A DNA stretch of 64,000 nucleotides from Salipiger thiooxidans (GTDB lineage: Bacteria; Pseudomonadota; Alphaproteobacteria; Rhodobacterales; Rhodobacteraceae). Both the position numbers and the translations under genes were made by a program. The notes beneath the pieces were generated by a model that saw only the letters and a list, made by a program, of their open reading frames with translations, ran no database searches and was not told the origin of the DNA. Position 1 is the first letter of the stretch; each line of letters begins with the position of its first letter. The DNA lies in NCBI RefSeq assembly GCF_900102075.1, contig NZ_FNAV01000008.1:1-64000 (forward strand), given 5' to 3'. Below are positions 414 to 14,460 of this stretch, piece after piece.

Positions 414-596
414 TCACCAAAGCCGCTGTTTGTCGTTCACGCAGCATAGGTCAATCCGGGCTCGCTGCCGACCTTCGCTGCTTAGGGCACGAACGACAGC
501 TCTTCCTTTGCACATGCGATCTGGGTCAGCGACCTGACTGGAAAGTCGCTTTTGCCTGAGACCTGACACCCTCGCCGGGCGCCCGCCGCCTGGGCC

Positions 597-1067
597 TCAG
601 CTCTCCTCGGCCTCGTCCAGCAGGTCCAGCGTCTCGGCCAGCGCGTCGATGAGCTCGGCCATGCGCCCTGCCCCGATGATCTTCTCGAGCCGCGCGTAGC
701 TCGCGGCGCTTTCGGGCGTCAGCCTTTCGATGAACGCGTTGCCGGCGGTGCTCAGCCGGATCATCGTGCGGCGCCCGTCGCTCGAATCGCGCGCCGTCTC
801 GATCAGCCCCCGGGCATTCAGGGTCTTGAGGATCCGCGACAGCGACGGCGCGAGGATGCAGGCCCGCTCGGCCACATCGCGGGCGTCGAGTTCTTCTGCC
901 TCCTGCAGCACCCGGAGCACCCGCCACTGCTGCTCGGTCACGTCATGGGCATGCAGCATCGGGCGGAATTCGTTCATGATCCGCTCGCGCAGGCGCAGCA
1001 GATTCATCGGAAGGTTCCGGCGCGTGTTGGACAGGTGGAACCCGTCCCTGATCGGTTTTTTCGGCAT
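597..1067 (-). CDS. hpaR: MarR-family repressor of homoprotocatechuate degradation, HpaR
   Basis: A 156-residue winged-helix regulator with the HpaR hallmark N-terminus (LSNTRRNLPMNLLRLRERIM). The MarR DNA-recognition segment follows (about residues 60-95, ending DSSDGRRTMIRLS, the wing). In enterobacteria HpaR represses the meta-cleavage hpa operon and is released by the aromatic acids. Here it is transcribed divergently from hpaFEDGHI across a 96-bp intergenic region holding an inverted-repeat operator, so autoregulation plus operon repression is the expected circuit. The ATG at 1067 gives the normal family length. An upstream in-frame extension is unlikely because it would cover the operator. 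Confidence 0.9.
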   Translation of the reverse strand: MPKKPIRDGFHLSNTRRNLPMNLLRLRERIMNEFRPMLHAHDVTEQQWRVLRVLQEAEELDARDVAERACILAPSLSRILKTLNARGLIETARDSSDGRRTMIRLSTAGNAFIERLTPESAASYARLEKIIGAGRMAELIDALAETLDLLDEAEES

Positions 1068-1111
1068 GGGCGTCCCGAGTGGTCTCTTCTGGATTCATGA
1101 AATCATCCTTC

Positions 1112-1140
1112 TTGACAAGCGTCCAGTTAATTAACATGTT
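1112..1140 (+). promoter_or_regulatory. Probable sigma70-type promoter of the hpa operon
   Basis: A perfect -35 hexamer TTGACA at 1112-1117 lies 17 bases before a weak -10-like CATGTT at 1135-1140. The -10 position lies inside the inverted repeat proposed as the HpaR operator, so bound repressor would block polymerase. The strong Shine-Dalgarno AGGAGGAG of hpaF (about 1147-1154) follows immediately. The -10 match is poor, so confidence is moderate. Confidence 0.5.
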
Positions 1141-1144
1141 CACT
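1128..1144 (+). promoter_or_regulatory. Candidate HpaR operator upstream of hpaF/hpaR
   Basis: The sequence TAATTAACATGTTCACT contains the imperfect inverted repeat TTAAC-AT-GTTCA. A reverse-oriented near copy (15 of 17 identical) lies at 10285-10301 before the TRAP transporter genes. MarR proteins bind AT-rich palindromes of this size, and this one sits between the divergent hpaR and hpaF genes. Assignment to HpaR is inferred from position and recurrence. Confidence 0.65.
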
Positions 1145-1163
1145 ATCAGGAGGAGACGAACCC

Positions 1164-1556
1164 ATGCCGCACATGCGCATCGAATACTCGCACGGGCTGA
1201 CCGTGCCCGAGGTCGAGAGCCTTTGCCGCGCCGTTCACGCGGCGATGGTCGGGGCCGGGATCTTCCCGCTTGCCGGGATCCGCGTCCGGGCCTTCCGCGC
1301 CGACGTGGCCATCGTCGCCGACGGTGACGCGAAGAACGATTTCGCCGCGCTGACGCTCTCGGTCGGCGCCGGACGCAGCACCGAGGCACTGCGGGCGGGC
1401 GGCGATCTGGTGTTTCGCGCCGCGCAGGGTGCGCTCGCCCACCGGCTTTGCGAGCCCCATTTCGCCCTGTCGCTCGAGATCCGCATCATCGACCCGGAGC
1501 TGAGCTGGAAGGACACCCCCATTCACGCCCGCCTGTCGGGACAGAAGAAGGACTGA
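1164..1556 (+). CDS. hpaF: 5-carboxymethyl-2-hydroxymuconate delta-isomerase
   Basis: A 130-residue cytosolic isomerase of the tautomerase superfamily. It converts 5-carboxymethyl-2-hydroxymuconate to 2-oxohept-3-ene-1,7-dioate (the OPET substrate) in the Hpa pathway. The mature protein begins with Pro directly after Met (MPHMRIEYS), the catalytic N-terminal proline of this family, which fixes the ATG at 1164. A strong AGGAGGAG lies just upstream. The family-typical LSLEIRIIDPELSWK segment is near the C-terminus. It is the first gene of the operon, 3 bases before hpaE. Length matches the family. Confidence 0.93.
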   Translation: MPHMRIEYSHGLTVPEVESLCRAVHAAMVGAGIFPLAGIRVRAFRADVAIVADGDAKNDFAALTLSVGAGRSTEALRAGGDLVFRAAQGALAHRLCEPHFALSLEIRIIDPELSWKDTPIHARLSGQKKD

Positions 1557-1559
1557 ACG

Positions 1560-3071
1560 ATGAGCGTTCTGCAGGACAACATCGCCAAGGCGCGCGGCTA
1601 CATGCAGCCGCTGGTCGACACCGGCGTTCTGAACCACATCGACGGCGCGACCGTGCCGGCGCGCTCGGGCGCGGTGATGGAGACGATCAGCCCCGTCGAC
1701 GGCAGCGTCCTGGCGCAGGTCGCGAAGAGCGGCGCCGAGGACATCGACGCCGCCGTCGCCGCCGCCAAGACCGCCTTCCCCGGCTGGTCGAAGATCCCCG
1801 GCGCCGAGCGCCGCAAGATCCTCATCAAGGTGGCGGAGGCCATCGAGGCCCGCGCCGAGGAGATCGCCTTCACCGAGTGCATGGACACCGGGCAGGCGCT
1901 GCGCTTCATGTCCAAGGCCGCGATCCGCGGCGCCGCCAACTTCCGCTTCTTCGCCGACCAGGCGCCGGGGGCCGAGGACGGCATGGTCAAGCGCACGCCG
2001 ACGCAGATGAACACCACCTCGCGCCGTCCCATCGGCCCGGTGGGGGTGATCACGCCGTGGAACACGCCCTTCATGCTCTCGACCTGGAAGATCGCGCCGG
2101 CGCTGGCCGCGGGCTGCACCGTGGTGCACAAGCCCGCCGAGTTCTCGCCGATGACCGCCAAGCTGCTGGTCGAGATCGCCGAAAGCGCCGGCCTGCCCAA
2201 GGGCGTGCTGAACGTGGTCAACGGGCTGGGCGAGACCGCCGGCAAGCGCCTGACCGAGCATCCCGACATCCGCGCCATCGCCTTTGTCGGCGAGTCGAAG
2301 ACCGGCTCGATGATCATGAAGCAGGGCGCGGACACGCTGAAGCGGGTGCATTTCGAGCTCGGCGGCAAGAACCCGGTCATCGTCTTCGACGACGCCGATC
2401 TCGACCGGGCCGTCGATGCGGCGGTGTTCATGATCTACTCGCTGAACGGCGAGCGCTGCACCTCCTCCTCGCGGCTGCTGGTGCAGGCCTCGGTCTATGA
2501 CGCGGTCACCGCCAAGGTCGCCGAGGCCGCGGCGCGGATCAGGATCGGCCACCCGCTCGACCCCGAGACGGTGGTGGGCCCCCTCATCCACCCGGTGCAC
2601 GAGCAGAAGGTCCTGAGCTACTTCGACACCGCCCGCGCCGAGGGTGCGACCATCGCCACCGGCGGCGAGAAGGTCGGCACCGAGGGCTGCTACGTCGCGC
2701 CCACGCTTTTCACCAATGCCACGGCGGACATGGCGATCTCGCAGGAAGAGATCTTCGGCCCGGTGCTCACCGCCATTTCCTTCGAGACCGAGGAAGAGGC
2801 GCTCGCCATCGCCAACGGCACCGACTACGGCCTCTCGGCCTATCTCTGGACCAACGATCTTGGCCGGGCGATGCGCATGACCGACGCGCTCGAGGCGGGG
2901 ATGATGTGGGTGAACTCCGAGAACATCCGCCACCTGCCGACCCCCTTCGGCGGCGTGAAGGCCAGCGGCATCGGCCGCGACGGCGGCGACTGGTCCTTCG
3001 ATTTCTACATGGAGACGGTGAACGTCAGCTTCCCCCGCACCGAGCACCGCATCCCGAAACTCGGCGGCTGA
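1560..3071 (+). CDS. hpaE: 5-carboxymethyl-2-hydroxymuconate semialdehyde dehydrogenase
   Basis: A 503-residue NAD-dependent aldehyde dehydrogenase that oxidises the ring-cleavage product of homoprotocatechuate to the dicarboxylic acid. The visible ALDH landmarks are the PWNTPFMLSTWKIAPALAAG cofactor segment near residue 165, the general-base Glu in FELGGKNP (about Glu266), the nucleophile in GERCTSS (Cys300) and EEIFGPV near residue 395. Length and landmarks are complete. The gene follows hpaF after 3 bases and precedes hpaD by 32 bases, where a GGAGGAG site marks the next start. Operon position separates it from generic betaine or succinate-semialdehyde dehydrogenases. Confidence 0.92.
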   Translation: MSVLQDNIAKARGYMQPLVDTGVLNHIDGATVPARSGAVMETISPVDGSVLAQVAKSGAEDIDAAVAAAKTAFPGWSKIPGAERRKILIKVAEAIEARAEEIAFTECMDTGQALRFMSKAAIRGAANFRFFADQAPGAEDGMVKRTPTQMNTTSRRPIGPVGVITPWNTPFMLSTWKIAPALAAGCTVVHKPAEFSPMTAKLLVEIAESAGLPKGVLNVVNGLGETAGKRLTEHPDIRAIAFVGESKTGSMIMKQGADTLKRVHFELGGKNPVIVFDDADLDRAVDAAVFMIYSLNGERCTSSSRLLVQASVYDAVTAKVAEAAARIRIGHPLDPETVVGPLIHPVHEQKVLSYFDTARAEGATIATGGEKVGTEGCYVAPTLFTNATADMAISQEEIFGPVLTAISFETEEEALAIANGTDYGLSAYLWTNDLGRAMRMTDALEAGMMWVNSENIRHLPTPFGGVKASGIGRDGGDWSFDFYMETVNVSFPRTEHRIPKLGG

Positions 3072-3103
3072 CGCCGCCCCTGTCTGCCTGGAGGAGACCA
3101 GAC

Positions 3104-4084
3104 ATGCCGATCCCCACCCCGAACCTCTACCCGCCCTTCAACATCGTGCGGCTGAGCCACGTCGTCTTCGGCGTCACCGACCTTGCGAAGTCGCGGCACT
3201 TCTACGTCGACACGCTGGGCCTGCAGGTGACCGACGAGAGCGAGGAGCGCATCTACCTGCGCGCCATGGAAGAGCGCGGCCACCACTGCATCGTGCTCGC
3301 GAAGGCCGAGAGCGCCAGCGCGCGCGCCCTGTCGTTCAAGGTCTACTCGGAAGAGTGCCTCGACAAGGCGCAGGCGTGGTTCGTCGAGAAGGGCCATGCC
3401 ACGGAATGGGTCGAGCGCCCGTTCCAGGGCCGCACGCTTGCCACCCACGACCATGACGGCATGCCCATCGAGTTCTACCATCGCATGGACCGCCTGCCAC
3501 CGATCCACCAGCAATACGCGCTCTACAAGGGCGTCAAGCCGCTGCGCATCGACCATTTCAACTGCTTCAGCCCCTCGGTCGACAAGTCCGTCGCCTTCTA
3601 CAACGAGCTCGGATTCCGGGTGACCGAGTACACCGAGGACGAGGAGAGCAAGCTGCTCTGGGCCGCGTGGACCCACCGCAAGGGCGGCGTGCACGACATC
3701 GCCTTCACCAACGGGCTGGGCCCGCGCCTGCACCACACCGCCTTCTGGGTGCCGACGCCGCTCAACATCATCGACCTCTGCGACCTGATGGCAACCACCG
3801 GCTACGTCGGCAACCTCGAGCGCGGGCCGGGGCGGCACGGGATCTCGAACGCCTTCTTCCTCTACATCCTCGACCCCGACGGCCACCGGATCGAGATCTA
3901 CTGCTCGGACTACCAGACCGTGGATCCCGACCTCGAGGCGATCAAGTGGGATCTCAAGGACCCGCAGCGCCAGACGCTCTGGGGGGCGCCTGCGCCCAAG
4001 TCGTGGTTCGAGCACGGCTCGGTCTTCGAGGGCGTGACGCCGCGCCCTGCAGAGCTGAACGCAACGCCCATCGTGGCACCCTGA
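3104..4084 (+). CDS. hpaD: 3,4-dihydroxyphenylacetate 2,3-dioxygenase (extradiol ring cleavage)
   Basis: A 326-residue vicinal-oxygen-chelate dioxygenase that cleaves the homoprotocatechuate ring. It has two tandem glyoxalase-like modules (about residues 17-130 and 150-275). The metal triad candidates are the His in LRIDHFNC, the first His of RLHHTAFW and the Glu in RIEIYCSDY near the C-terminus. The ATG at 3104 is preceded by GGAGGAG. The longer frame running from 2906 overlaps hpaE and lacks any signal. This type resembles the Mn/Fe HPCD and MndD enzymes rather than the class III (LigB-fold) HpaD of E. coli. Confidence 0.92.
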   Translation: MPIPTPNLYPPFNIVRLSHVVFGVTDLAKSRHFYVDTLGLQVTDESEERIYLRAMEERGHHCIVLAKAESASARALSFKVYSEECLDKAQAWFVEKGHATEWVERPFQGRTLATHDHDGMPIEFYHRMDRLPPIHQQYALYKGVKPLRIDHFNCFSPSVDKSVAFYNELGFRVTEYTEDEESKLLWAAWTHRKGGVHDIAFTNGLGPRLHHTAFWVPTPLNIIDLCDLMATTGYVGNLERGPGRHGISNAFFLYILDPDGHRIEIYCSDYQTVDPDLEAIKWDLKDPQRQTLWGAPAPKSWFEHGSVFEGVTPRPAELNATPIVAP

Positions 4085-4094
4085 GGAGCCGGAC

Positions 4095-4961
4095 ATGACC
4101 GAACGCATCGCCACCTTCCGCGCCGGCGGGCGCGACCGATACGGGCTCGTGACCGAGGGCGGGCTCGTCGATCTCACGCCCGAGTTCGGCGCCCGGTTCC
4201 CGACACTCCGCGAGGTGATCGAGGCCGGCGCGCTGGACGCGATGGTGCAGGCGGGCGCCGGGCGGGCGCCCTCATGGGCCGAGCAGGACGTCACCTTTCT
4301 GCCGCCGATCCCGCGCCCGGACCGGATCATCTGCGTCGGGGTGAACTTTCCCGACCGCAATGCCGAGTACAAGGACGGCAGCGCCCAGCCCGAGCACATG
4401 TCGCTGTTCCCGCGCTTCCCCTCGTCCTTCACCGGCCACGGCCAGCCGCTGATCCGCCCGCCCGAGAACGACACGCTGGACTACGAGGGCGAGATCGCCG
4501 TCGTCATCGGCAAAGGCGGCCGCCGCATCGCCGCCGAGGACGCCTATGACCACATCGCGGCCCTGACGCTCTGCAACGAGGGCACCATCCGCGACTGGGT
4601 GCGCCACGCCAAGTTCAACGTGACGCAGGGCAAGAACTGGGACCGCTCGGGCGCGCTCGGGCCGTGGCTGGTGCCGTTCCGCGACGCCGCGCAGCTCGAT
4701 GACGCCAGCATCGAGACCCGGGTCAACGGCGAGCTTCGCCAGAAGGACGCGCTGCGCAACATGATGTTCCCGATCCGCAAGGAGATCGCCTACATCTCGA
4801 CCTTCACCACGCTTGCCCCCGGCGACATCATCGTCACCGGCACGCCCTCGGGCGCCGGCGCGCGCTTCGATCCGCCGCGCTACCTCGTGCCCGGCGACGT
4901 GATCGAGGTCGAGGCCCCCGGCATCGGCATCCTGCGCAACACGGTGGCCGACGAATGCTGA
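4095..4961 (+). CDS. hpaG: Fumarylacetoacetase-fold decarboxylase of the Hpa pathway (OPET decarboxylase)
   Basis: A 288-residue protein with an FAH-family catalytic domain from about residue 75 to the end (IICVGVNFPDRNAEY, LDYEGEIAVVIGKGG, GTPSGAGA). In the pathway it decarboxylates 5-carboxymethyl-2-oxo-hex-3-ene-1,7-dioate to the hydratase substrate. Acidic metal ligands are visible in the DYEGEIAVV block. Unlike the E. coli HpaG, which is a two-domain fusion, this is a single FAH domain with an N-terminal cap. It overlaps hpaH by 7 bases, indicating translational coupling. The exact reaction is taken from operon context. Confidence 0.85.
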   Translation: MTERIATFRAGGRDRYGLVTEGGLVDLTPEFGARFPTLREVIEAGALDAMVQAGAGRAPSWAEQDVTFLPPIPRPDRIICVGVNFPDRNAEYKDGSAQPEHMSLFPRFPSSFTGHGQPLIRPPENDTLDYEGEIAVVIGKGGRRIAAEDAYDHIAALTLCNEGTIRDWVRHAKFNVTQGKNWDRSGALGPWLVPFRDAAQLDDASIETRVNGELRQKDALRNMMFPIRKEIAYISTFTTLAPGDIIVTGTPSGAGARFDPPRYLVPGDVIEVEAPGIGILRNTVADEC

Positions 4962-5755
4962 CGCCGGAACAGATCGAGACCGCCGCCGCGGCGCTGCTGG
5001 CCGCCGAGGAGACGCGCGAGCAGATCGGGCTGCTGTCCATTCAGCACCCGGGCATGACGCTCGACGATGCCTACGCGATCCAGTCGGCGCAGATGCGGCA
5101 GAAGCTGGCGGCGGGCCGCAGGGTCATCGGCTGGAAGATCGGCCTCACCTCGAAGGTCATGCAGGACGCGCTCGGGATCGACACGCCCGACAGCGGCGTG
5201 CTCTACGACGACATGCTGTTCCGGAGCGGCGAGGTCGTGCCCGAGGGCCGCTTCATCCAGCCGCGGGTCGAGGCCGAGATCGCCTTTGTCATGAAAGATG
5301 CCATCGGCGGCAACGTGACCCGCGACGAGGTGCTGGCCGCCACCGACCACGTGGCCCCGAGCCTCGAGATCCTCGACACCCGCATCCTGCGCAAGGACCC
5401 CGGGACCGGCCGCGCCCGCGTCATCGTCGACACCGTCTCGGACAATGCCGCCAACGCGGGCATCGTGCTGGGCACGCAGAGGAACGCGCCCCGCGCCTTC
5501 GACCTGCGCTGGACCGGCGCCATCCTGCGCGCCGGTGGCGAGGTGGTCGCGACCGGGCTCGGCGCCGCGGTGCTGGACGACCCGGTGATGGGCATCGTAT
5601 GGCTGGCACGGCGCATGCACCAGTATGGCCAGCGCATCGAGGCCGGGCAGGTCATCCTCTCGGGCTCGTTCATCGCGCCGATCGAGTGCCGCCCGGGCAC
5701 GCGGATCGACGCGGATTTCGGCCCCTTCGGCCAAGTATCGACGGAGTTCGCCTGA
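4955..5755 (+). CDS. hpaH: 2-oxo-hept-4-ene-1,7-dioate hydratase
   Basis: A 266-residue hydratase of the MhpD/HpaH (FAH-fold) family that adds water to 2-oxo-hept-4-ene-1,7-dioate before aldolase cleavage. Family landmarks are GWKIGLTSKVMQ near residue 52, the RVEAEIAFVM metal-binding block near 105 and APSLEILDTRI near 135. The ATG at 4955 lies inside the end of hpaG and its TGA overlaps the hpaI start by one base (TGATG). The length is normal for the family. Confidence 0.92.
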   Translation: MLTPEQIETAAAALLAAEETREQIGLLSIQHPGMTLDDAYAIQSAQMRQKLAAGRRVIGWKIGLTSKVMQDALGIDTPDSGVLYDDMLFRSGEVVPEGRFIQPRVEAEIAFVMKDAIGGNVTRDEVLAATDHVAPSLEILDTRILRKDPGTGRARVIVDTVSDNAANAGIVLGTQRNAPRAFDLRWTGAILRAGGEVVATGLGAAVLDDPVMGIVWLARRMHQYGQRIEAGQVILSGSFIAPIECRPGTRIDADFGPFGQVSTEFA

Positions 5756-6513
5756 TGCCCGCACCGCAAAACCGCTTCAAGAGCCGCCTCAGGGCCGGCG
5801 AGACGCAGATCGGCCTGTGGGTCGCGCTCGGCGATCCCTCGGTGGCAGAACTCTGTGCCCACGCCGGCTTCGACTGGCTGGTGATCGACGGCGAGCATGG
5901 CCCGAACGGGCTGCGCGACCTGCTGGCGCAGCTTCGCGCCGTGGGGCAGGCCTCGCACCCGGTGGTCCGGGTCAAGGACGACGACCGCGCCGGCATCAAG
6001 CAGGCGCTCGACATCGGCGCGCAGACCCTCCTTGTGCCCATCGTCGAGAGCGGCGAGCAGGCCGCCGAGATCGTGCGCTCGGTGCTCTACCCGCCGAAGG
6101 GCGCGCGCGGCGTCGGCGCGGCGCTGGCGCGGGCCTCCGGCTATGGGTCGATCCCCGACTACCTGCAGACCGCCGACGAGCAGATCTGCCTGCTGCTGCA
6201 GGTGGAAACCGTCAGGGGCATGGAGGCGCTCGACGACATTCTCGCCGTCGAGGGCGTGGACGGCATCTTCGTGGGCCCTGCCGATCTGGCCGCCGACATG
6301 GGCCACCGCGGCAACCCCGGCGCGCCCGAGGTGCAGGCGACGATCATCGACGCGCTGACCCGGATCCGCGCGGCGGGCCGGGCGGCGGGCATCCTGACGT
6401 CGGACAAGGCGCTGGCGCAGTCCTACATCGACATGGGCTGCGAGTTCGTCGCCGTGGGCTCGGACGCGGGCGCGCTCATGGGCGCGCTGAAGGCGCTTCG
6501 CGCGCAGTACTGA
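5755..6513 (+). CDS. hpaI: 4-hydroxy-2-oxoheptane-1,7-dioate aldolase
   Basis: A 252-residue class II (metal-dependent) aldolase of the HpcH/HpaI family, the last step of the pathway, giving pyruvate and succinate semialdehyde. Catalytic and metal-site residues are visible: His48 in DGEHGPN, Glu in LQVETVRG (about 150) and Asp in FVGPADLAADMG (about 175). The gly/arg-rich PPKGARGVGAA loop is also present. The ATG overlaps the hpaH stop by one base, fixing the start. This is the final gene of the hpa operon, 22 bases from the convergent LysR gene, with no clear terminator between. Confidence 0.93.
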   Translation: MPAPQNRFKSRLRAGETQIGLWVALGDPSVAELCAHAGFDWLVIDGEHGPNGLRDLLAQLRAVGQASHPVVRVKDDDRAGIKQALDIGAQTLLVPIVESGEQAAEIVRSVLYPPKGARGVGAALARASGYGSIPDYLQTADEQICLLLQVETVRGMEALDDILAVEGVDGIFVGPADLAADMGHRGNPGAPEVQATIIDALTRIRAAGRAAGILTSDKALAQSYIDMGCEFVAVGSDAGALMGALKALRAQY

Positions 6514-6535
6514 GCGTCACCGGGGGACCGCGCCG

Positions 6536-7468
6536 TCACTCGGAGCAGCTCTCCAGCACCAGCTCGCGCAGCCAGCGGTGCATGGCCGAGCGGTGGGTGC
6601 GGGCGGTCCAGACCGCGCTGATCTCGAACCGGCCCTTGAACGGGCTCGGCCCCATCACAAGGTCCGCCGCGATCCGCTCGCCAAGGCGGCGCGGCACCGT
6701 GGCAACAAGGCTCGAGCCCGCCAGAAGCTCGCGCAGCCCCGCCGGGCTCGGCACGATCAGCGCCGGGCGCAGCTTGTGGCCCGCGGCCTCGAGCTCATGC
6801 AGGTAGGCCGATTTCCAGCTCACCCCGTAATCGATCAGCAGGTGGTTGAGCGTAAGGTACTCCTCGACCGTCAGCGCCCTGCCCGCGTCCGGGTGCGAGG
6901 GATCCATCAGGCAGGCATATTCTTCGGAATGGATGCGCCGCGAGTGAAAGCCGGAATCCGTCCGCCCCAGCGGCCCGACCAGCAGGTCGGCATCGTGGTT
7001 CAAGAGCCGCAGGTGCCCGTCGCCAAGCGCGTTGATCACCCGGATCGACAGGTTCGGCGCCTCCTTGCGCAGCGCCGAGACGATGCGCGGGATCAGCAGG
7101 ATCCGCTCGTAGTAATTGCAGGCGATGGTCACGCTGAGATCCGATCCCGCCGGGTCGAAGACCTCGGGCTGGGCCATCAGGTCGAGCATGTCGAGCATCT
7201 GCCCCGCCTGCGCCAGCAGAGCCTCGCAGCGCCGCGTCGGCACCTGCCGCCCGGCCTCGCGCACAAACAGCGGATCATGGAAGCAGCGCCGCAGTTTCGA
7301 GATCGTGTAACTCACCCCCGACTGGTTCACGCCCAGATGCTCCGCCGCCGCGGTGAAGGAGCCCAGCCGGTGCACCAGCAGCAGCGTGTTGAGCGCCGCG
7401 AAGTCGAGGCTCCCCGCCTCGCCGCCGAGTCTGTCCATGCCGATCCCCATCAAATTTTCTGATACCAT
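6536..7468 (-). CDS. LysR-family transcriptional regulator, probable regulator of the P450 operon
   Basis: A regulator of about 310 residues with an N-terminal winged helix-turn-helix (SFTAAAEHLGVNQSGVSYTISKLR) and a C-terminal ligand-binding domain of the NodD/NahR-like subgroup (LLRNHDADLLVGPLG-like block, PSHPDAGRALTVEEYLTLNHL). It is divergently transcribed from the P450-ferredoxin-reductase genes, the standard layout for a LysR protein controlling its neighbour. Its effector is therefore likely the P450 substrate or product. The start is uncertain: ATG at 7468, or ATG at 7450, which gives a more typical N-terminus. No strong ribosome binding site decides it. Confidence 0.85.
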   Translation of the reverse strand: MVSENLMGIGMDRLGGEAGSLDFAALNTLLLVHRLGSFTAAAEHLGVNQSGVSYTISKLRRCFHDPLFVREAGRQVPTRRCEALLAQAGQMLDMLDLMAQPEVFDPAGSDLSVTIACNYYERILLIPRIVSALRKEAPNLSIRVINALGDGHLRLLNHDADLLVGPLGRTDSGFHSRRIHSEEYACLMDPSHPDAGRALTVEEYLTLNHLLIDYGVSWKSAYLHELEAAGHKLRPALIVPSPAGLRELLAGSSLVATVPRRLGERIAADLVMGPSPFKGRFEISAVWTARTHRSAMHRWLRELVLESCSE

Positions 7469-7548
7469 ATACAAAATGCATCTTATTGCTCAAGGGCGCA
7501 CGCGCTCGGTATCAGGAGGGCGAGGAGACATTTCGGGGAGGAGACACT

Positions 7549-8724
7549 ATGGCGGTCGCACCGCTTGACGATACCATTACGCTTGCGCAACTGACGGCGG
7601 ATCCCTACCCGCTCTACCAGCGCATGCGGCGCGAGACCCCGGTGCTGCGGGTCAAGGCGCTGGGGCGGACCTTCCTGACGCGCGCCGCGCTCACCAAGCA
7701 GGTCAAGGACGACCCCGAGACCTTCAGCAGCGACGATCCGAACACGCCGATGAAGCCCGCCTTCCGCGCCCATACGCTGATGCGCAAGGACGGCGCCGAG
7801 CACATGTCCGAGCGCAAGGCGATCATGCCGGCGCTGGCGCCCAAGCGCATCAACACCGACTGGGGCCCGCTCTACGAGCGCCTTGCCGAGGAGTACATCT
7901 CGCGCCTGCCGCGCGGCGAGACGGTCGATCTCTTCCGCGAACTCTGCGGCCCGCTGGCCGCGCGCATCCTTGCGCATATCCTCGGCATCCCAGAGGCCAC
8001 GGACGAGCAGATGCGGCGCTGGTCGCAGTGCCTCATCGATGGCGCCGGCAACTTCGGCTGGAAGCGCGAGCCCTTCGCCGCATCGGACGCCGCCAATGAC
8101 GAGATGGACGCGCTTTTCGACCGGCTGCGCGACGAGCGGATCGGCAACCCGGACGGCTCGGCGTTCTCGTCGATGCTGACCGCCGAGAACCCGATCCCGC
8201 TCAGCCAGATCTATTCCAACATCAAGATCGCCATCGGCGGCGGCATCAACGAGCCGCGCGACGCGCTGGCGACGGTGCTCTACGGGCTGCTCGACAACCC
8301 CGACCAGCTGGCCGAGGTCAAGGCGCAGGACGCCTGGGGCAAGGCCTTCGAAGAGGCCATCCGCTGGGTCGCCCCGATCCAGGTCAGCTCGCGCCTCGTC
8401 ACCGCCGACACCGAGCTTGGCGGCTTCGAGATCCCCAAGGGCGACACGGTGATGACGATCCAGGCCTCGGCCTGCCGCGACGAGGAGCTCTACGAGAACG
8501 GCGAGGACTTCTTCGTCTTCCGCGACAAGAACCCCCACCAGGCCTTCGGCAACGGCCCGCACCATTGCGCGGGCGCACATGTGGCGCGGCGCACCGTCGG
8601 GCGGATCATCCTGCCGATGCTCTTCGACCGGTTCCCGGACATGAAGCTCGACACGGCCGGGGACGTGGTCTGGAAGGGCTTCGGCTTCCGCGGCCCGATC
8701 AACCTGCCGGTCACGCTCAACTGA
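7549..8724 (+). CDS. Cytochrome P450, likely aromatic O-demethylase (GcoA/CYP255-like)
   Basis: A 391-residue soluble P450 with the haem loop FGNGPHHCAG (ligand Cys340) and the ExxR helix EEAIRW near 268. The oxygen-activation helix reads GGGINEPRD, so the usual acid-Thr pair is replaced by Asn234-Glu235-Pro236. From memory, guaiacol O-demethylase GcoA has a comparable EP in this helix and a similar C-terminus (GFRGP). I infer O-demethylation of a methoxylated phenylacetate such as homovanillate, giving the HpaD substrate. The ATG follows GGGGAGGAG. Ferredoxin and reductase genes follow directly, so this is a three-component class I system. The substrate is inference. Confidence 0.9.
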   Translation: MAVAPLDDTITLAQLTADPYPLYQRMRRETPVLRVKALGRTFLTRAALTKQVKDDPETFSSDDPNTPMKPAFRAHTLMRKDGAEHMSERKAIMPALAPKRINTDWGPLYERLAEEYISRLPRGETVDLFRELCGPLAARILAHILGIPEATDEQMRRWSQCLIDGAGNFGWKREPFAASDAANDEMDALFDRLRDERIGNPDGSAFSSMLTAENPIPLSQIYSNIKIAIGGGINEPRDALATVLYGLLDNPDQLAEVKAQDAWGKAFEEAIRWVAPIQVSSRLVTADTELGGFEIPKGDTVMTIQASACRDEELYENGEDFFVFRDKNPHQAFGNGPHHCAGAHVARRTVGRIILPMLFDRFPDMKLDTAGDVVWKGFGFRGPINLPVTLN

Positions 8725-8760
8725 CCGCAGCGACGGACATCACGAATGAGGAGGAATGCC

Positions 8761-9084
8761 ATGGTCCAGGTGACCTATGTCGCCCATGACGGGGCGGAAA
8801 CGACGATCGACGCGACCGAGGGCGACAGCGTCATGCAGGCGGCGGTGGCCAATGACGTCGACGGCATCGTCGGCGAATGCGGCGGCGCGATGATGTGCGC
8901 CACCTGCCATTGCTACGTGGACGAGGCGTGGGCCGAGCGCACCGGCCCCCGCGACGAGGGCGAGGACGACATGCTCGAGGGTGCCGCCTCCGAGATCACC
9001 GAACGCTCGCGCCTGTCCTGCCAGATCAAGCTTACCGCCGAACTCGACGGTCTGGTCGTGCACCTGCCCGAGGAACAGCTTTGA
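8761..9084 (+). CDS. [2Fe-2S] ferredoxin, putidaredoxin type, P450 electron donor
   Basis: A 107-residue adrenodoxin/putidaredoxin-type ferredoxin. Cluster ligands are Cys40, Cys46 and Cys49 (GECGGAMMCATC) plus the Cys in RLSCQI near residue 87, in the normal C-x5-C-x2-C-xn-C spacing. It carries electrons from the downstream reductase to the P450. The start ATG at 8761 has GAGGA just upstream. Its stop overlaps the TTG start of the reductase gene, so the two are translationally coupled. Confidence 0.95.
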   Translation: MVQVTYVAHDGAETTIDATEGDSVMQAAVANDVDGIVGECGGAMMCATCHCYVDEAWAERTGPRDEGEDDMLEGAASEITERSRLSCQIKLTAELDGLVVHLPEEQL

Positions 9085-10256
9085 GCCCGCAGCACATCGT
9101 GGTGGTGGGCGCCGGTCAGGGCGGGCTGCAGGCGACCATCAGCCTGCGGCATGCGGGTTATGCCGGGCGGCTCACCCTGATCGGCGCCGAGCCCGGCCTG
9201 CCCTACCAGCGCCCGCCGCTGTCCAAGGCCTACCTCAAGGAGGGCCGCGCCGAGGCGCTGATGCTGCGGCCGCAGAGCTTCTTCGAGAGCAAGGACATTG
9301 CCTACCTTCCGCAGACCACGGTCGAGGGCATCGACCGTGGCGCGGGCGAAATCGCGTTCCACGGCCCCGACGGCAAGGGGCGCCTGCCCTACGACCACCT
9401 CGTGCTCGCCACCGGCACACGCAACCTGCGCCCGCCCATCGAGGGGCTCGAGCACGCCTGCGACCTGCGCACCCTTGCCGACGCCGAGACCCTGCGCACC
9501 CGGCTGGGCACGCCGCGCCGCATCGCCGTGATCGGCGGCGGCTTCATCGGGCTCGAGTTCGCCGCGGTGGCGCGCGGGCTCGGTCACGAGGTCGCGGTGA
9601 TCGAGGCGGCGCCCCGGCTGATGGCGCGCTGCGTCTCGGCCCGGATGTCCGAACATTTCGCCGACCTGCACCGCGGCATGGGTACGGCGCTGCATCTCGG
9701 CACCCCGGCGGTGGCCGTCGATGCGGGCGGCGTGACGCTCGGGGACGGCAGCCATCTCGCGGCCGATTTCACGCTGCTTGCCGCCGGGGTCGTGCCCAAT
9801 GCAGAGCTGGCCGCCGAGGCCGGGCTCGAGGTCGAGAACGGCGTCCGGCTTTGCGGACGGCTCCTGACCAGCGATCCGCAGATCTCGGCGCTGGGGGACT
9901 GCGCCAGCTTCCCCGACCCGCGGGACGGCCAGCGCATCCGGCTCGAGAGTGTGCAGGCCGCCACCGACCACGCCCGCTTCATCGCGGCGCGCCTCAGCAA
10001 GGGCGGCGAAGATCACTACGCTGCCCTGCCGTGGTTCTGGTCGGACCAGGCGGACAGCAAGCTGCAGATCGCGGGGTTTGCCGGTCCCGGCACCTCGGAG
10101 GTGGTGATCTGCGACGGCGTCGTGGCCCGGCTCGACGACCGGGGCCTCGTCGCGGTGGAGACCGTCAACAACGCCGGCATTCACATGAAGAGCCGCCGCC
10201 TGCTGTCGGGAGGCACGCCGGCCGGACTGGACGACCTCGTGCAGATCGCCGCCTGA
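9081..10256 (+). CDS. FAD-dependent NAD(P)H:ferredoxin reductase (putidaredoxin reductase type)
   Basis: A 391-residue flavoprotein that passes electrons from NAD(P)H to the adjacent ferredoxin. The FAD Rossmann motif VVVGAGQGG is at the N-terminus, the PYQRPPLSK block near residue 35, the NAD motif VIGGGFIGLEFAA near 150 and the second FAD motif LGDCASF near 270. I choose TTG at 9081, which overlaps the ferredoxin stop (TTGA) and has GAGGA 6 bases upstream. An earlier in-frame start at 8877 lies inside the ferredoxin gene and encodes no reductase sequence. The length is typical. Confidence 0.93.
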   Translation: MSPQHIVVVGAGQGGLQATISLRHAGYAGRLTLIGAEPGLPYQRPPLSKAYLKEGRAEALMLRPQSFFESKDIAYLPQTTVEGIDRGAGEIAFHGPDGKGRLPYDHLVLATGTRNLRPPIEGLEHACDLRTLADAETLRTRLGTPRRIAVIGGGFIGLEFAAVARGLGHEVAVIEAAPRLMARCVSARMSEHFADLHRGMGTALHLGTPAVAVDAGGVTLGDGSHLAADFTLLAAGVVPNAELAAEAGLEVENGVRLCGRLLTSDPQISALGDCASFPDPRDGQRIRLESVQAATDHARFIAARLSKGGEDHYAALPWFWSDQADSKLQIAGFAGPGTSEVVICDGVVARLDDRGLVAVETVNNAGIHMKSRRLLSGGTPAGLDDLVQIAA

Positions 10257-10284
10257 GGCGGGATCCACGGGGCTGGGCCAATAC

Positions 10285-10301
10285 AGTTAACTTGTTAATT
10301 A
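10285..10301 (-). promoter_or_regulatory. Second candidate HpaR operator, before the TRAP genes
   Basis: Read on the minus strand the site is TAATTAACAAGTTAACT, matching the hpaF/hpaR site at 15 of 17 positions. It contains the perfect inverted repeat TTAAC-TT-GTTAA at 10287-10298. It lies 46 bases upstream of the dctP start in an otherwise GC-rich leader. The repetition suggests the TRAP transporter is co-regulated with the hpa operon. Confidence 0.6.
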
Positions 10302-10347
10302 TCGTCTCCCGTGGTAGGGAAGACTCATCTGAGGGAGGAGACCCAGA

Positions 10348-11328
10348 ATGAAACATCACCTGATCGCCGCTTCGGCGGGCGTGTCGCTGTGCCTTGCCAC
10401 GAGCGCGGGCGCCAACGAGCTGAAATACGCCAACTGGGCCTCGCCCATGCACACCATCGTCGCGGCACAGGTCGACCCTCTCGCCAAGGCGCTGGACGAG
10501 GGCACCGGCGGCGAGACCACGCTGCGCAGCTACAACGGCGGCGAGCTCGGCGCGGGCCCGGCGGACCAGTTCGTGCGCGTGCTTCAGGGCACCGCCGACA
10601 TGGGCTGGGGCGTGCATGGCTACACCTCCTCGCAGTTCCCAAAGAGCCTCGTGCTCGAGCTGCCGGGCGCACTGCCGCTCGACCAGCCGGGCTACGCCGC
10701 GCTCTGGCGCGCCTTTCCCGACGAGCTGGCGCAGGAATACCCGCGCACCGAGGTGATCGCGCTCTGGGCCTCCGAGCCCAACATCCTGATGATGCGCGAC
10801 AAGGAGGTGCACAGCCCCGCCGACCTCAAGGGCCTGAAGATGCGGGTCGCGGGCTCGATCTCGGCCGAGGCGATGGAAGCGCTCGGCGCAACCCCGGTGC
10901 AGATCCCGATGACGCAGGTCTACAACGGCCTGCAGACCGGCCTCATCGACGGCGTCATCTCGGGCGCCTCCGTGCTCTCGGACTTCAAGCTCAACGAGGT
11001 GGTCGGCAGCATCACCTCCGGGCCGAACTTCGGTCGCCTGACCTTCTACACCGTGATGTCGCAGGGCGCCTATGACGGGCTCTCGGACGAGGCCAGGGCC
11101 GCGCTCGACACGCTCAAGGGCGAGGAGATCTCGCGCATGACCGAAGAGGCCTGGGTCGCCACCGCCGACGAGGCGCTGGAGGCCGCGCGTCAGGCCGACG
11201 GCATCACCGTGCTCGACCTCGAGGGCGACGAGGCGCAGGCCTTCAACGACGCGCTGGCCTCGGTGACCGACGCCTACGTGGCCGAGGTCGGCGGCGAGGC
11301 GGCGCTGGCGGCGATCCGGGGCGAATGA
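10348..11328 (+). CDS. TRAP transporter substrate-binding protein, DctP family
   Basis: A 326-residue periplasmic binding protein with a Sec signal peptide (about residues 1-23, ending SAGA-NE) and the DctP fold. The carboxylate-binding Arg lies in LKGLKMRVAGS near residue 168 and the ligand block TQVYNGLQTGLIDGV near 190. TRAP systems import organic anions on a sodium gradient. The ATG follows GGGAGGAG, and the stop overlaps the dctQ start. Position after the P450 system and behind an hpa-type operator suggests an aromatic acid (phenylacetate-type) ligand; that is inference. Confidence 0.92.
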   Translation: MKHHLIAASAGVSLCLATSAGANELKYANWASPMHTIVAAQVDPLAKALDEGTGGETTLRSYNGGELGAGPADQFVRVLQGTADMGWGVHGYTSSQFPKSLVLELPGALPLDQPGYAALWRAFPDELAQEYPRTEVIALWASEPNILMMRDKEVHSPADLKGLKMRVAGSISAEAMEALGATPVQIPMTQVYNGLQTGLIDGVISGASVLSDFKLNEVVGSITSGPNFGRLTFYTVMSQGAYDGLSDEARAALDTLKGEEISRMTEEAWVATADEALEAARQADGITVLDLEGDEAQAFNDALASVTDAYVAEVGGEAALAAIRGE

Positions 11329-11825
11329 TGCTGGGCAGGGTGCACTGGCTGGCGGACAGGCTGATCGGCCTGTCCGCGATCGTCGGCACGCTCGGGCTGC
11401 TCTTCGTGGTGGCCGTGATCGTGTTCGACGTGGTGGGGCGCAACTTCGGCGCCCCGCTCTACGGCTCGCAGGACCTCATCACCATGACCATGGTGATCAT
11501 CGTCTTCGGCGGCATGTCGCTCTGCGACCGTGACGGCGGGCACATCGTCGTCGACATCTTCGAGAACACATTCTCGCCTCGGCTCAACCGTGTCATCGAC
11601 GTGGTCGCCGCGCTGCTGGGGGCGGTGATCTTCGTGCTCATCGCCTGGACCGTCTGGCAGAGCGCCCAGCTGAGCGTCCTGCTGAACCTCGCCACCAACC
11701 TGCTGCGCCTGCCCACCGCTCGGTTCCAGTACGCGCTCTGCATCTTCTCGCTGATCACCGCGCTGGGGATGCTGCTGCGGGCCGTGAGCCTGATGCTCGG
11801 CCACAAGGCTGCGGGGGCCGCATGA
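11325..11825 (+). CDS. TRAP transporter small permease, DctQ family
   Basis: A 166-residue inner-membrane protein with four predicted transmembrane helices (about residues 20-42, 52-70, 88-110 and 130-152). It carries the DctQ pattern FDVVGRNFGAPLYGSQDL and the charged CDRDGGHIVVDIF loop. It pairs with DctM to form the TRAP membrane unit. It starts in the dctP stop (ATGA) and overlaps the dctM start by 4 bases, so the three genes are coupled. Confidence 0.92.
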   Translation: MMLGRVHWLADRLIGLSAIVGTLGLLFVVAVIVFDVVGRNFGAPLYGSQDLITMTMVIIVFGGMSLCDRDGGHIVVDIFENTFSPRLNRVIDVVAALLGAVIFVLIAWTVWQSAQLSVLLNLATNLLRLPTARFQYALCIFSLITALGMLLRAVSLMLGHKAAGAA

Positions 11826-13120
11826 GCAGCGTCTTCGTCGGCTCCGTCGGACTGGCGCTGCTGCTGGTCCTCCTCCTGATGCGAATCCCCGTGGCCTTCG
11901 CGATGTTCGCGGTGGGCTTCATCGGCATCTGGATCCTCAACGGGCTGCAGGCCGCGACAGGCCTGCTGTCTTCCGAGACCTTCGCGCTCGCGTCCAATTC
12001 CGAGCTTATCGTCGTGCCGCTCTTCATCCTGATGGGCAACGTCGCCAGCGCCACCGGCATGAGCCGCAAGCTCTACGACGCGGCCTATGCCACAATCGGG
12101 CAGGTGCGCGGCGGGCTTGCCTCGGCCACGGTGATCGGCTGCGGCGGCTTCGCGGCGCTCTCGGGCTCGTCGGTGGCCTCGGCGCTGACCATGGGCCGCA
12201 CGGCACTGGCCGAGATGGACCGCTTCGCCTACAGCCCGCGGCTCTCGACCGGGGTCGTCGCGGCGGGCGGCACGCTGGGCATCCTGATCCCGCCCTCCAC
12301 CGGCTTCGTGATCTACGCCATCCTCACCGAGCAGAGCATCGGGCGGCTCTTCATGGCCGGCATCCTGCCGGGCATCCTGCTGCTCACGGCCTTCCTGCTG
12401 ACCATCGCACTGCTCTGTACGCTGAAGCCCGAACTCGGGCCCCGTGGTCCCAAGACCAACGCCCGCGAGAAGGGCCGCGCCTTCCTCGGCGCGGTACCGA
12501 TCCTGGCCATCGTGGTGATCACCATCGGCGGCATCTACAGCGGCATGTTCTCGCCCACCGAGGCCGCCGGCGTCGGCGCGGCGCTGGTCATCCTCATCGG
12601 CGCGGTCACCCGCACCCTGACCCTGCGGGTGTTCTGGGACGCCGCGCGCAGCTCCATCGTGACCACCGCCTCGGTCATGCTGATCCTGATCGCGGCGCAC
12701 ATGATCAACCCCTTCGTGGCGCTCAGCCACCTGCCCGCCGAGGTCAGCCGGCTGCTCGTCGCGCTCGACTTCGGGCCGTTCGGGACGCTGGTGGTGATCC
12801 TCGCGATCTACCTCGTGCTGGGCTGTTTCCTCGAGGGTCTGGCGATGCTCGTGCTCACCCTGCCGATCTTCATGCCGGTGGTGCTGCAGCTGGGCATCGA
12901 CCCGATCTGGTTCGGTGTGCTGGTGGTGCTGACGCTCGAGATGGGGCTGATCTCGCCGCCCGTGGGGATCAACGTCTTCATCGTGAAATCCGTCGCCCGC
13001 AATGTCGAGCTGCTCGACATCTTCCGCGGTGTGCTGCCGTTCTGGCTGGCGATGCTGCTGACGCTGGCGCTGCTTGTGGCGGTGCCGAGCCTGTCGCTCT
13101 GGCTGCCGAGCATGATGTGA
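11822..13120 (+). CDS. TRAP transporter large permease, DctM family
   Basis: A 432-residue, roughly 12-helix inner-membrane permease. DctM landmarks are LMRIPVAFAMFAVGFIG near the N-terminus, the VPLFILMGN block, GCGGFAALSGSSVASALTMG near residue 105, GTLGILIPPSTGFVIYAI near 150, FSPTEAAGVGA near 240 and LISPPVGINVFIVKS near 375. It is the transport channel of the DctPQM system. A GC-rich hairpin at 13130-13157 lies just past the stop. Length and landmarks are complete. Confidence 0.93.
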   Translation: MSSVFVGSVGLALLLVLLLMRIPVAFAMFAVGFIGIWILNGLQAATGLLSSETFALASNSELIVVPLFILMGNVASATGMSRKLYDAAYATIGQVRGGLASATVIGCGGFAALSGSSVASALTMGRTALAEMDRFAYSPRLSTGVVAAGGTLGILIPPSTGFVIYAILTEQSIGRLFMAGILPGILLLTAFLLTIALLCTLKPELGPRGPKTNAREKGRAFLGAVPILAIVVITIGGIYSGMFSPTEAAGVGAALVILIGAVTRTLTLRVFWDAARSSIVTTASVMLILIAAHMINPFVALSHLPAEVSRLLVALDFGPFGTLVVILAIYLVLGCFLEGLAMLVLTLPIFMPVVLQLGIDPIWFGVLVVLTLEMGLISPPVGINVFIVKSVARNVELLDIFRGVLPFWLAMLLTLALLVAVPSLSLWLPSMM

Positions 13121-13129
13121 CCGACGCTC

Positions 13130-13157
13130 CGGCGCGGCTCCCGCAAGGGCCGCGCCG
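13130..13157 (+). terminator. GC-rich hairpin after the TRAP operon
   Basis: A 9-bp perfect stem, CGGCGCGGC with GCCGCGCCG, surrounds a 10-base loop, 10 bases after the dctM stop. The following bases are only modestly T-rich, so it may act as an mRNA 3' end or a weak terminator rather than a classic intrinsic terminator. Confidence 0.45.
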
Positions 13158-13237
13158 AGGTCGTTCTTCGACCGCTGCGCGTGGTCCGCTCTCCGCTTCT
13201 TTCGGTCTGGAACCGCTCAGGCGCGCAAGCTCCCCGC

Positions 13238-13414
13238 TCAACCTACGTCCGGCCACCCCAGCGCCCGCGAAAGTCTCCGGGCCGAGGCGGTGGTCAGGCG
13301 GATGATGTGCCCGAGCTCGCGGACGCGGACGCGGAAGGCGGGCGCCACCACGTGCACCGAGGCCACCACCGAGCTGTCGATGGCAAAGACGGCAGGCACC
13401 CGCTCTGCGACTGC
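13238..13414 (-). pseudogene. IclR-family regulator, C-terminal remnant
   Basis: The last ~58 codons of an IclR-type effector domain survive on the minus strand (FAIDSSVVASVHVVAPAFRV, then RELGHIIRLTTASARRLSRALGW), the standard IclR C-terminus. Upstream of about 13414 the similarity stops abruptly and the sequence becomes the reverse complement of a LysR tail. There is no helix-turn-helix and no start. The breakpoint and the opposed LysR remnant suggest one deletion across a divergent regulator pair. Confidence 0.65.
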
Positions 13415-13420
13415 AGGGAC

Positions 13421-13785
13421 ATCACGCCGGCGGACCTGCACGGCGTGCCGCTGATCATGACCGGGCACCAGCGGCCGCAGCGGGCGGCGCTGGACCACAT
13501 GTTCGACAAGACCGGCGTCCGACCGCCGATCAAGATCGAGACCCACACCGACAGCTCGGCCTGCGCCTTCGTCGCTGGGGGGCCCGGCGTGTCGATCGTC
13601 AGCAGTCTCTTCGCCAACCTGATCCGCGATTTTCCCATTGTCCTGAGGCGGTTCGGCCCTCGCTCGACCCGGAGCTTCGGGCGGCTGCGGGACAGGGACG
13701 TGCCCCTGCCCCTCGCCGCCCGGCGCACCGGCGAGATCCTGATGCGCGAGCTCGTCTGCTCGCTGCTGCCGCCCGACGAGCTGCT
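13421..13785 (+). pseudogene. LysR-family regulator, C-terminal remnant
   Basis: About 120 residues matching the second half of a LysR effector domain are readable: ITPADLHGVPLIM, then RAALDHMFDKTGVRPPIKIE, then SACAFVAGGPGVSIVSSLFA, and the tail RDRDVPLPLAARRTGEILMREL. The DNA-binding domain and first effector subdomain are missing. The open frame runs on to 13888 with no similarity and overlaps the tetR gene on the other strand. No ribosome binding site or sensible start is present, so I call it a remnant. Confidence 0.7.
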
Positions 13786-13809
13786 GTCGAACGGTCGCTG
13801 GCGCCTGCC

Positions 13810-14364: not shown

Positions 14365-14382
14365 ACCTCAACCTACTTGAAA

Positions 14383-14399
14383 ACGGAGGATGCCTCCGT
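14383..14399. promoter_or_regulatory. TetR operator palindrome within the aldehyde oxidoreductase promoter
   Basis: ACGGAGG-ATG-CCTCCGT is a perfect 7-bp inverted repeat with a 3-base spacer, in the 96-bp region between tetR and the molybdoenzyme operon. A TTGAAA -35-like hexamer at 14378-14383 and TTTTAA at 14401-14406 flank it at a 17-base spacing. A repressor here would occlude the promoter spacer. Confidence 0.7.
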
Positions 14400-14460
14400 A
14401 TTTTAAGGAACAGGCCCCCGGGGCCCAAGTTCCCGTCAGCTTACAGCCAAAGAGGGAAAG

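Follow-up and report, generated by a model that had tools for sequence, protein, structure and literature searches.

A predicted HpaR operator on the TRAP importer of a putative VirH2-type cytochrome P450 module next to the homoprotocatechuate operon of Salipiger thiooxidans

Two kinds of described system meet in the DNA treated here, P450 enzymes that take methoxyl groups off aromatic acids and the operon for meta-cleavage of homoprotocatechuate. The stretch, called the window below, comprises the first 64,000 nucleotides of contig C49 (NZ_FNAV01000008.1; base 1 is a contig end) in the 5.87-Mb draft genome of Salipiger thiooxidans, and our subject is its hpa operon, its cytochrome P450 and its tripartite ATP-independent periplasmic (TRAP) importer, DctPQM. 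The methoxyl group that VirH2 of the Ti plasmids takes off ferulate lies meta to the side chain. CYP1232A24 of Arthrobacter, which we take to be the protein of structure 6g71, was reportedly found by Klenk in 2019 to convert homovanillate to 3,4-dihydroxyphenylacetate (homoprotocatechuate); GcoA is presumably CYP255A. A review (PMC4285021) describes the virH region as two P450-like genes, the product of each converting ferulate to caffeate, and PMC6683767 presents VirH2 as the O-demethylase that turns ferulic into caffeic acid. GcoA forms a two-component system with GcoB (PMC6021390). Footprints of HpaR on the hpa promoter of Yersinia pseudotuberculosis cover TTAA-N4-TTAA palindromes, which the paper likens to those of E. 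coli W, and one of them overlaps the -10 element; on another promoter the HpaR site is a different, imperfect repeat (PMC7180172). For the window, we regard it on balance as probable that two units lie side by side, an ordinary hpa operon and a P450-TRAP module of putative VirH2 type, and that the importer of the latter has gained an HpaR operator. In the literature searched, we found no publication on this combination of hpa genes with a P450 and importer.

Gene calls were checked against NCBIfam and Pfam family cut-offs. A first-pass annotation made from the sequence alone had named hpaFEDGHI, lysR, a P450 system and dctPQM, and the family models confirmed these genes and their positions. 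The features are as follows:

597..1067, minus strand: hpaR, MarR-family repressor of the homoprotocatechuate operon (TIGR02337, 149.1 bits, cut-off 121.2)
1131..1142, no strand: HpaR-type operator TTAACATGTTCA, one mismatch, in the hpaR-hpaF gap, 22 bp before hpaF (site equally placed in 16 of 20 relatives' hpa loci)
1164..1556, plus strand: hpaF, 5-carboxymethyl-2-hydroxymuconate isomerase (PF02962, 123.9 bits, cut-off 26.5)
1560..3071, plus strand: hpaE, 5-carboxymethyl-2-hydroxymuconate semialdehyde (CHMS) dehydrogenase (TIGR02299, 747.2 bits, cut-off 638.35)
3104..4084, plus strand: hpaD, homoprotocatechuate 2,3-dioxygenase (TIGR02295, 415.9 bits, cut-off 321.4)
4095..4961, plus strand: hpaG-like FAH-family decarboxylase/isomerase, single domain (TIGR02303, 157.5 bits, under the cut-off of 276.4)
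4955..5755, plus strand: hpaH, 2-oxo-hept-4-ene-1,7-dioate hydratase (TIGR02312, 353.8 bits, cut-off 351.5)
5755..6513, plus strand: hpaI, 4-hydroxy-2-oxoheptanedioate aldolase (TIGR02311 the best family, 354.0 bits, just under the cut-off of 368.8)
6536..7438, minus strand: lysR, regulator of the P450 module (PF00126 and PF03466; 62-67% identity in the seven closest named orthologous modules)
7449..7463, no strand: LysR-type box ATCAAATTTTCTGAT in the lysR-P450 gap (similar box seen by eye in L150-L157)
7549..8724, plus strand: cytochrome P450 of 391 amino acids (aa), putative VirH2-type methoxyphenol O-demethylase (65.5% identity to the second Ti-plasmid P450, tree, pocket columns)
8761..9084, plus strand: [2Fe-2S] ferredoxin (PF00111, 36.1 bits)
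9081..10256, plus strand: fdR, NAD(P)H ferredoxin reductase (PF07992 and PF14759)
10287..10298, no strand: perfect HpaR-type operator TTAACTTGTTAA in the fdR-dctP gap, 50 bp before dctP (sole exact copy in 5.87 Mb)
10348..11328, plus strand: dctP, TRAP solute-binding protein (PF03480, 137.9 bits)
11325..11825, plus strand: dctQ, TRAP small permease (PF04290, 72.5 bits)
11822..13120, plus strand: dctM, TRAP large permease (PF06808, 332.1 bits)

On the minus strand, hpaR diverges from hpaFEDGHI (plus strand, 1164-6513), as lysR does from the P450-ferredoxin-reductase-dctPQM run (plus strand, 7549-13120). Since hpaI (stop 6513) and lysR (stop 6536) converge on a gap of 22 bases, the two blocks, hpa operon and P450 module, are separate transcription units without a common promoter. 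For lysR the ATG at 7438 was judged the likelier start; an upstream TTG would lengthen the gene to 7474. The heme-ligand motif of the P450 reads FGNGPHHCAG, and DctP, DctQ and DctM, all present and over their Pfam cut-offs, make up a full TRAP set. LysR, the P450, the ferredoxin and its reductase likewise exceed their Pfam cut-offs.

With hpaFEDGHI the window has a homoprotocatechuate meta-cleavage operon of the ordinary kind, repressed by HpaR. HpaD, HpaE and HpaH exceed curated cut-offs and lie in one run with the HpaF, HpaI and HpaG-like genes, while HpaR exceeds TIGR02337 and a TTAA-N4-TTAA-type operator stands at the promoter. HpaF passes PF02962 but stays under NF011605 (71.7 against 215 bits). 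The HpaG-like protein has one domain of 288 aa, matches best the C-terminal half of HpaG and is the only one of its kind in the operon, in which no bifunctional two-domain HpaG was found. The "complete lower meta pathway" of the first-pass annotation stands as far as all six genes were identified, but with only this one single-domain HpaG-like gene. Single-domain length is also usual for the hpaG-like open reading frames of relatives (283-310 aa in most of 20 loci). The operon shares HpaR, HpaE, HpaD, HpaF, HpaH, HpaI and the type of operator with that of E. coli W; it differs in the single-domain HpaG, in a VOC-type (TIGR02295) HpaD and in the lack of any HpaB match in the genome.

The first-pass description of the P450 as O-demethylase-like was borne out. 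Among solved structures it is closest to 6g71 (254 bits), followed by GcoA (about 176-178 bits). A closer relative, and the nearest one of known function, was found on the Ti plasmid NC_002377, where two P450 genes stand in tandem, followed by virK-family and virA-like genes. The second of these is 65.5% identical to the window P450 over 391 residues, the first 26.2%. The record names both only "cytochrome P450"; the arrangement fits virH1-virH2, and we take the second to be VirH2, a name assigned in this analysis. In a tree of 49 rows, the window P450 and this Ti-plasmid P450 fall into one 19-row clade (support 97/96) within a 33-row clade (96/97). Another clade (11 rows, 97/93) holds CYP1232A24, a P450 encoded inside an hpa cluster (L090) and five rows of a second roseobacter P450 group; 6g71 and GcoA sit on long branches, and the tool warned about their placement.

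We further compared 17 pocket columns aligned to GcoA. Six of these (Val241, Gly245, Phe75, Phe169, Phe395 and Thr296) are named in PMC6021390; the others are further positions taken to belong to the pocket, or neighbours. The window P450 equals the Ti-plasmid P450 throughout except for Val in place of Ala at GcoA-295, a Val also present in 3 of the 8 close orthologues shown. Gaps at the GcoA-169 and GcoA-293 columns are common to both, and the Phe169 column is a gap in every row shown but GcoA. None of the 14 changes specific to the window P450 (against at least 8 of 9 orthologues) falls on a pocket column. At several pocket columns the window P450 is unlike CYP1232A24 and the L090 P450; CYP1232A24, which has the I-helix motif NEPRD in common with the window P450 and VirH2, differs by M/G/M/V against F/Q/V/S at GcoA columns 75/294/295/296. 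As a main reading, we therefore rejected orthology to CYP1232A24 on the separate clade and the unlike pocket columns, the exact place of the long 6g71 branch being unsure. GcoA shares the EP of the I helix and the equivalents of Phe75 and Phe395; in place of the GcoAB arrangement, the window has separate ferredoxin (PF00111) and reductase (PF07992, PF14759) genes. Taken together, clade and pocket columns support kinship of the window P450 with VirH2-type methoxyphenol or aromatic O-demethylases. The settings differ: in the 6.2-kb Ti-plasmid stretch the putative VirH2 gene adjoins another P450 gene, virK and a virA-like gene, and the annotation lists neither ferredoxin nor reductase nor TRAP genes, whereas the window P450 sits in a LysR-TRAP module with redox partners of its own. 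A P450-importer module found in marine and soil bacteria is thereby assigned to the VirH2 family, for which a catabolic rather than vir-linked role becomes testable.

To follow the module, we used a set of 341 genomes of the order, at least 42 of which (source genome included) encode the P450 at 54% identity or more; this is a lower bound, at most five candidates being scored per genome. In the seven closest other genomes (P450 at 78-82%), the lysR, P450, ferredoxin, reductase and TRAP genes are all retained, and no hpaD lies within the 20 kb fetched around the P450. Weak hpaE-like aldehyde dehydrogenases occur near it in two of the seven, and six of the seven lack any HpaD match at E <= 1e-60. 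A search through species genomes yielded 132 P450 relatives, of which the best 80 (54-84% identity) were fetched, 64 of them at full length with 10 kb on each side; some come from genomes that also appear among our loci known by handle (L152 = L045 and L154 = L046; Salipiger bermudensis). Within the fetched stretches, hpaD, hpaF, hpaH, hpaI and hpaR were found in none of the 80, and the weak matches to hpaE (2) and hpaG (4), at 31-36%, look like paralogues. All module genes were present in 9 of the 80 by a loose criterion, and a dctM of at least 70% identity also in 9. The module was seen in Roseivivax, Poseidonocella, Salipiger, Alloyangia and Paracoccus. It is probably mobile, because the P450 (the only gene compared) is found at 77-80% identity on plasmids of Alloyangia pacifica, Paracoccus aestuarii and P. 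liaowanqingii. Across the 341 genomes, HpaD accompanies the P450 in 24 of 42 cases against 73 of 299 without it (p 3e-5), but the correlation is gone once genomes with the second P450 group are removed (11/29 against 86/312, p 0.28). The P450 module is independent of hpa, and the dedicated hpa-P450 unit proposed in the first-pass annotation was not borne out by its relatives.

The genes around related P450s point to another pathway. At thresholds of 40% identity, half of the query and E 1e-15, feruloyl-CoA-synthetase-like, enoyl-CoA-hydratase-like or protocatechuate-branch genes were found near the P450 in 25 of the 80 named loci. The same holds for 14 of 41 loci known by handle (L043-L083; 16 of the 57 examined were set aside as other P450s of 36-48% identity), and for none of 20 hpaD loci; the synthetase and hydratase names come from generic Pfam and NCBIfam models and from context. 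In L049 (P450 at 78%) the module adjoins pobA (over cut-off), a protocatechuate dioxygenase beta subunit and a pcaB-like gene (under cut-off). In the source genome, the nearest feruloyl-CoA-synthetase-like protein is only 40% identical and lies on another contig. Protocatechuate dioxygenase is encoded in 207 of the 341 genomes, the source genome included, so its co-occurrence with the P450 says little; a VanA-type Rieske protein is likewise present in the source genome. An amidohydrolase gene (L051, 10588-11502; also L163-L168 and others) was observed with the VirH2-type P450 in 13 of the 80 named loci, at 89-94% identity to the L051 copy in 12 and 82% in L197, always accompanied by a feruloyl-CoA-synthetase-like or hydratase-like gene.

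What would tie the two units together in the window is the palindrome before dctP. The motif was spotted by eye in intergenic DNA; the comparisons with hpa loci and with the footprint paper were made later and agree with it. Of the 20 hpa loci of relatives, 16 have a site with at most one mismatch immediately ahead of hpaF, on the upstream side of the hpaE match at a distance of 408-492 bases, and in 11 it is exact; it was not found at this stringency in L137, L142, L144 and L146, the last having a one-mismatch site further upstream. The window has two sites at up to one mismatch against 0.02 expected, and the whole genome six, of which only that before dctP is exact; the four outside the hpaF and dctP gaps have one mismatch each, and the motif read backwards gave 31. 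No site at up to one mismatch was found in about 20 kb of each of 14 orthologous loci (12 distinct genomes). Among 121 related P450 loci (2.40 Mb), there were no exact sites and 10 with one mismatch; the looser TTAA-N4-TTAA occurs nine times in these loci, and in the window only before dctP. Some relatives also have sites upstream of TRAP genes in the vicinity of hpa, at 5-56 bp from the predicted start of dctP: L130 and L138 have exact ones, L131 two with one mismatch each. Close to a further dctM-like gene of L138 there is none. The P450 promoter has a LysR-type box, the sole copy at up to two mismatches in the window, and no HpaR site. The predicted RNA fold of the fdR-dctP gap was unremarkable (z 0.89). 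It is thus the importer, not the P450, that seems to have been captured by the HpaR regulon, and since the TRAP genes carry an HpaR-type operator, the importer is plausibly tied to the hpa pathway. The first-pass annotation had counted the TRAP genes as the importer of the hpa unit; the operator speaks for this, but the P450-TRAP module occurs elsewhere without hpa.

We accordingly propose two neighbouring units with a shared point of control. The usual task of the P450 module would be uptake and O-demethylation of 4-hydroxy-3-methoxy aromatics (ferulate, vanillate) to catechols and formaldehyde, as suggested by the VirH2 kinship and by the neighbours in relatives. In the source genome, where the units lie tail to tail, the importer genes may have acquired the HpaR operator; inducers of HpaR should then raise dctPQM together with hpaFEDGHI, the P450 would stay under LysR, and the importer would most likely also bring in an arylacetate for the hpa pathway. 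A single new operator would have drawn a transporter into the catabolic regulon next to it, a case of adjacent operons fusing functionally. Several observations weigh against the proposal. The queried ferulate- and protocatechuate-type genes are absent from the window beyond weak paralogue-like matches, and no more than roughly one P450 locus in three has such genes nearby. An HpaR-controlled importer makes most sense if its cargo goes through hpa, which leans to homovanillate or 4-hydroxyphenylacetate and not to ferulate. Solved relatives of DctP, at 104 bits or less, are too distant to name a ligand. HpaR binding at 10287 is a prediction only, and a promoter scan of 500-13300 gave a single promoter-like match, elsewhere (3794, minus strand; 0.8 expected), with no excess in the promoter and terminator scan.

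The first alternative, which is that of the first-pass annotation, makes one pathway of the locus: homovanillate or another methoxylated phenylacetate enters through DctPQM, loses its methyl group to the P450 to become homoprotocatechuate, and is then degraded by hpaDEFGHI. We regard it as doubtful. The HpaR-type operator on the importer fits this route, homovanillate shares the 4-hydroxy-3-methoxyphenyl pattern of ferulate, and the sister-clade CYP1232A24 is reported to make 3,4-dihydroxyphenylacetate from it. A P450 inside an hpa cluster also occurs elsewhere (L090), and the VanA-type protein of the genome need not cover homovanillate. In one study, Rhodococcus VanAB did not degrade homovanillate (PMC9867520). 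Against this route stand the missing P450-hpaD pairing in all 80 fetched relatives, the position of the P450 in the VirH2-type clade and not with CYP1232A24 or the L090 P450, and a P450 promoter with a LysR-type box in place of an HpaR site. In addition, the pocket columns are like those of orthologues, and of the orthologues' genomes that were checked most have no HpaD. Homovanillate is the compound where both halves would meet, but ancestry, pocket and relatives' neighbours point elsewhere, to the ferulate and vanillate side; as the P450's own specialisation it finds no backing, and as a further substrate of a VirH2-type enzyme it is possible. A combined version, in which the hpa operon captured a VirH2-type module through the new HpaR operator, with the importer thereby under HpaR and homovanillate taken up, stripped of its methyl group by the P450 and broken down via HpaD, appears to us likewise only a tentative option. 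If true, the captured module would represent a proteobacterial homovanillate pathway early in its assembly, the importer having been rewired ahead of the P450.

Mere adjacency, with the palindrome before dctP unused and the P450-TRAP module unrelated to hpa, appears less likely still. Separate regulators and convergent transcription agree with it, and a module seen elsewhere without hpa, with its P450 also on Alloyangia and Paracoccus plasmids, might have arrived by chance. However, the genome has no second exact copy of the palindrome, dctP begins shortly after it, and sites of this kind precede TRAP genes next to hpa in three relatives. When the fdR-dctP gap was shuffled 20000 times with its dinucleotides kept, the palindrome arose exactly in no shuffle and with one mismatch in 12, a descriptive figure.

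The first-pass annotation had also seen the P450 in the place of the 4-hydroxyphenylacetate hydroxylase HpaBC. Its remark that the window lacks HpaBC holds, and no match to the HpaB family (PF03241) was found anywhere in the draft genome, window included. HpaD exceeds its cut-off in 97 of the 341 genomes (100 at E <= 1e-60) and HpaB in 20 (22 at E <= 0.001), and only five of the 97 have both, leaving 92 without an over-cut-off HpaB. Absence of HpaB is normal among HpaD genomes and no clue to the role of the P450. The argument from absence to replacement was rejected on these counts and on a C2-type hydroxylase homologue on contig C32; neither the adjacency of P450 and hpa nor the absence of HpaBC should be read as pathway evidence.

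This C32 protein resembles the C2 oxygenase of p-hydroxyphenylacetate 3-hydroxylase (540 bits to 2jbr, which we take to be from the C1-C2 enzyme of Acinetobacter) and exceeds the NF045920 cut-off (690.1 against 650 bits). It differs from the Acinetobacter system in lying outside the window, in a short reductase partner (C1) under the NF045919 cut-off (256.4 against 340, matching only positions 2-165 of 309) and in an extradiol-type cluster of its own, with a hydrolase and an extradiol-dioxygenase-like protein that stays under the cut-offs. No HpaR-type site at up to two mismatches was found in 16 kb of this cluster. Given the short reductase, its own cluster and the lack of such a site, the C32 hydroxylase may serve another phenol. 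A route in which the P450 acts on a para-methoxy compound (4-methoxyphenylacetate) to give 4-hydroxyphenylacetate, which such a C1-C2 hydroxylase encoded elsewhere turns into homoprotocatechuate, could draw on the over-cut-off C32 homologue, but we consider it highly improbable in view of the meta position of the methoxyl that VirH2 removes from ferulate and of the separate C32 cluster with no HpaR-type site. In the C32 cluster (L255, G000:C32:1-16000), genes for the C2-type phenol hydroxylase, flavin reductase, extradiol-dioxygenase-like protein, hydrolase and a SnoaL-like protein form one run, with a resolvase-type recombinase gene a few kilobases away. Two other candidates for a 4-hydroxyphenylacetate hydroxylase of the acyl-CoA-dehydrogenase-like kind resemble ordinary acyl-CoA dehydrogenases (3 of 29 PF08028 matches were examined).

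Other P450s were considered as well. A search of the source genome for a homovanillate enzyme led nowhere: of seven regions fetched, five gave tblastn matches of 23-27% identity to the window P450, and those of the two top-scoring PF00067 matches (L239, L240) gave none. The second P450 group (34-40% identity band; L094-L099 read) co-occurs with HpaD in the 341 genomes (48/58 with it against 49/283 without, odds ratio 23, p 1e-21), and it is five of its rows (L095-L099) that the tree places near CYP1232A24. In the six loci read, hpaD is not adjacent and no HpaR-type site was found at up to one mismatch. This group is the better candidate for a P450 that supplies homoprotocatechuate. Among the 16 set-aside loci, hpaD was found in L090, matches to hpaG, hpaH and hpaI in L087 and L090, and a pcaH match in one. 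In L090 (G325:C8:1-12000), the CYP1232A24-clade P450 and a ferredoxin lie between hpaR and hpaF, and a pyridoxal-phosphate (PLP)-dependent decarboxylase between hpaD and hpaG; in L087 the hpaG-, hpaH- and hpaI-like genes are several kilobases from a P450 of 44% identity.

The hpa loci of relatives (L130-L149) have further members. PLP-dependent decarboxylases form a cluster represented in 9 of the 20, and a second dioxygenase of LigB type (HpaD_Fe) one represented in 7, one or two members of each being scanned; this is a hint that aromatic amines or amino acids feed into the pathway. The best match to the decarboxylase in the source genome is only 28% identical. Downstream of dctM in the window, a LysR-type regulator remnant was recognised (13181-13885, plus strand; PF03466 matched only at 87-206 of 209, the later part of the substrate-binding domain), followed by a TetR-family regulator gene divergent from those of a three-subunit molybdenum hydroxylase of the xanthine dehydrogenase/aldehyde oxidase type (13810-18225).

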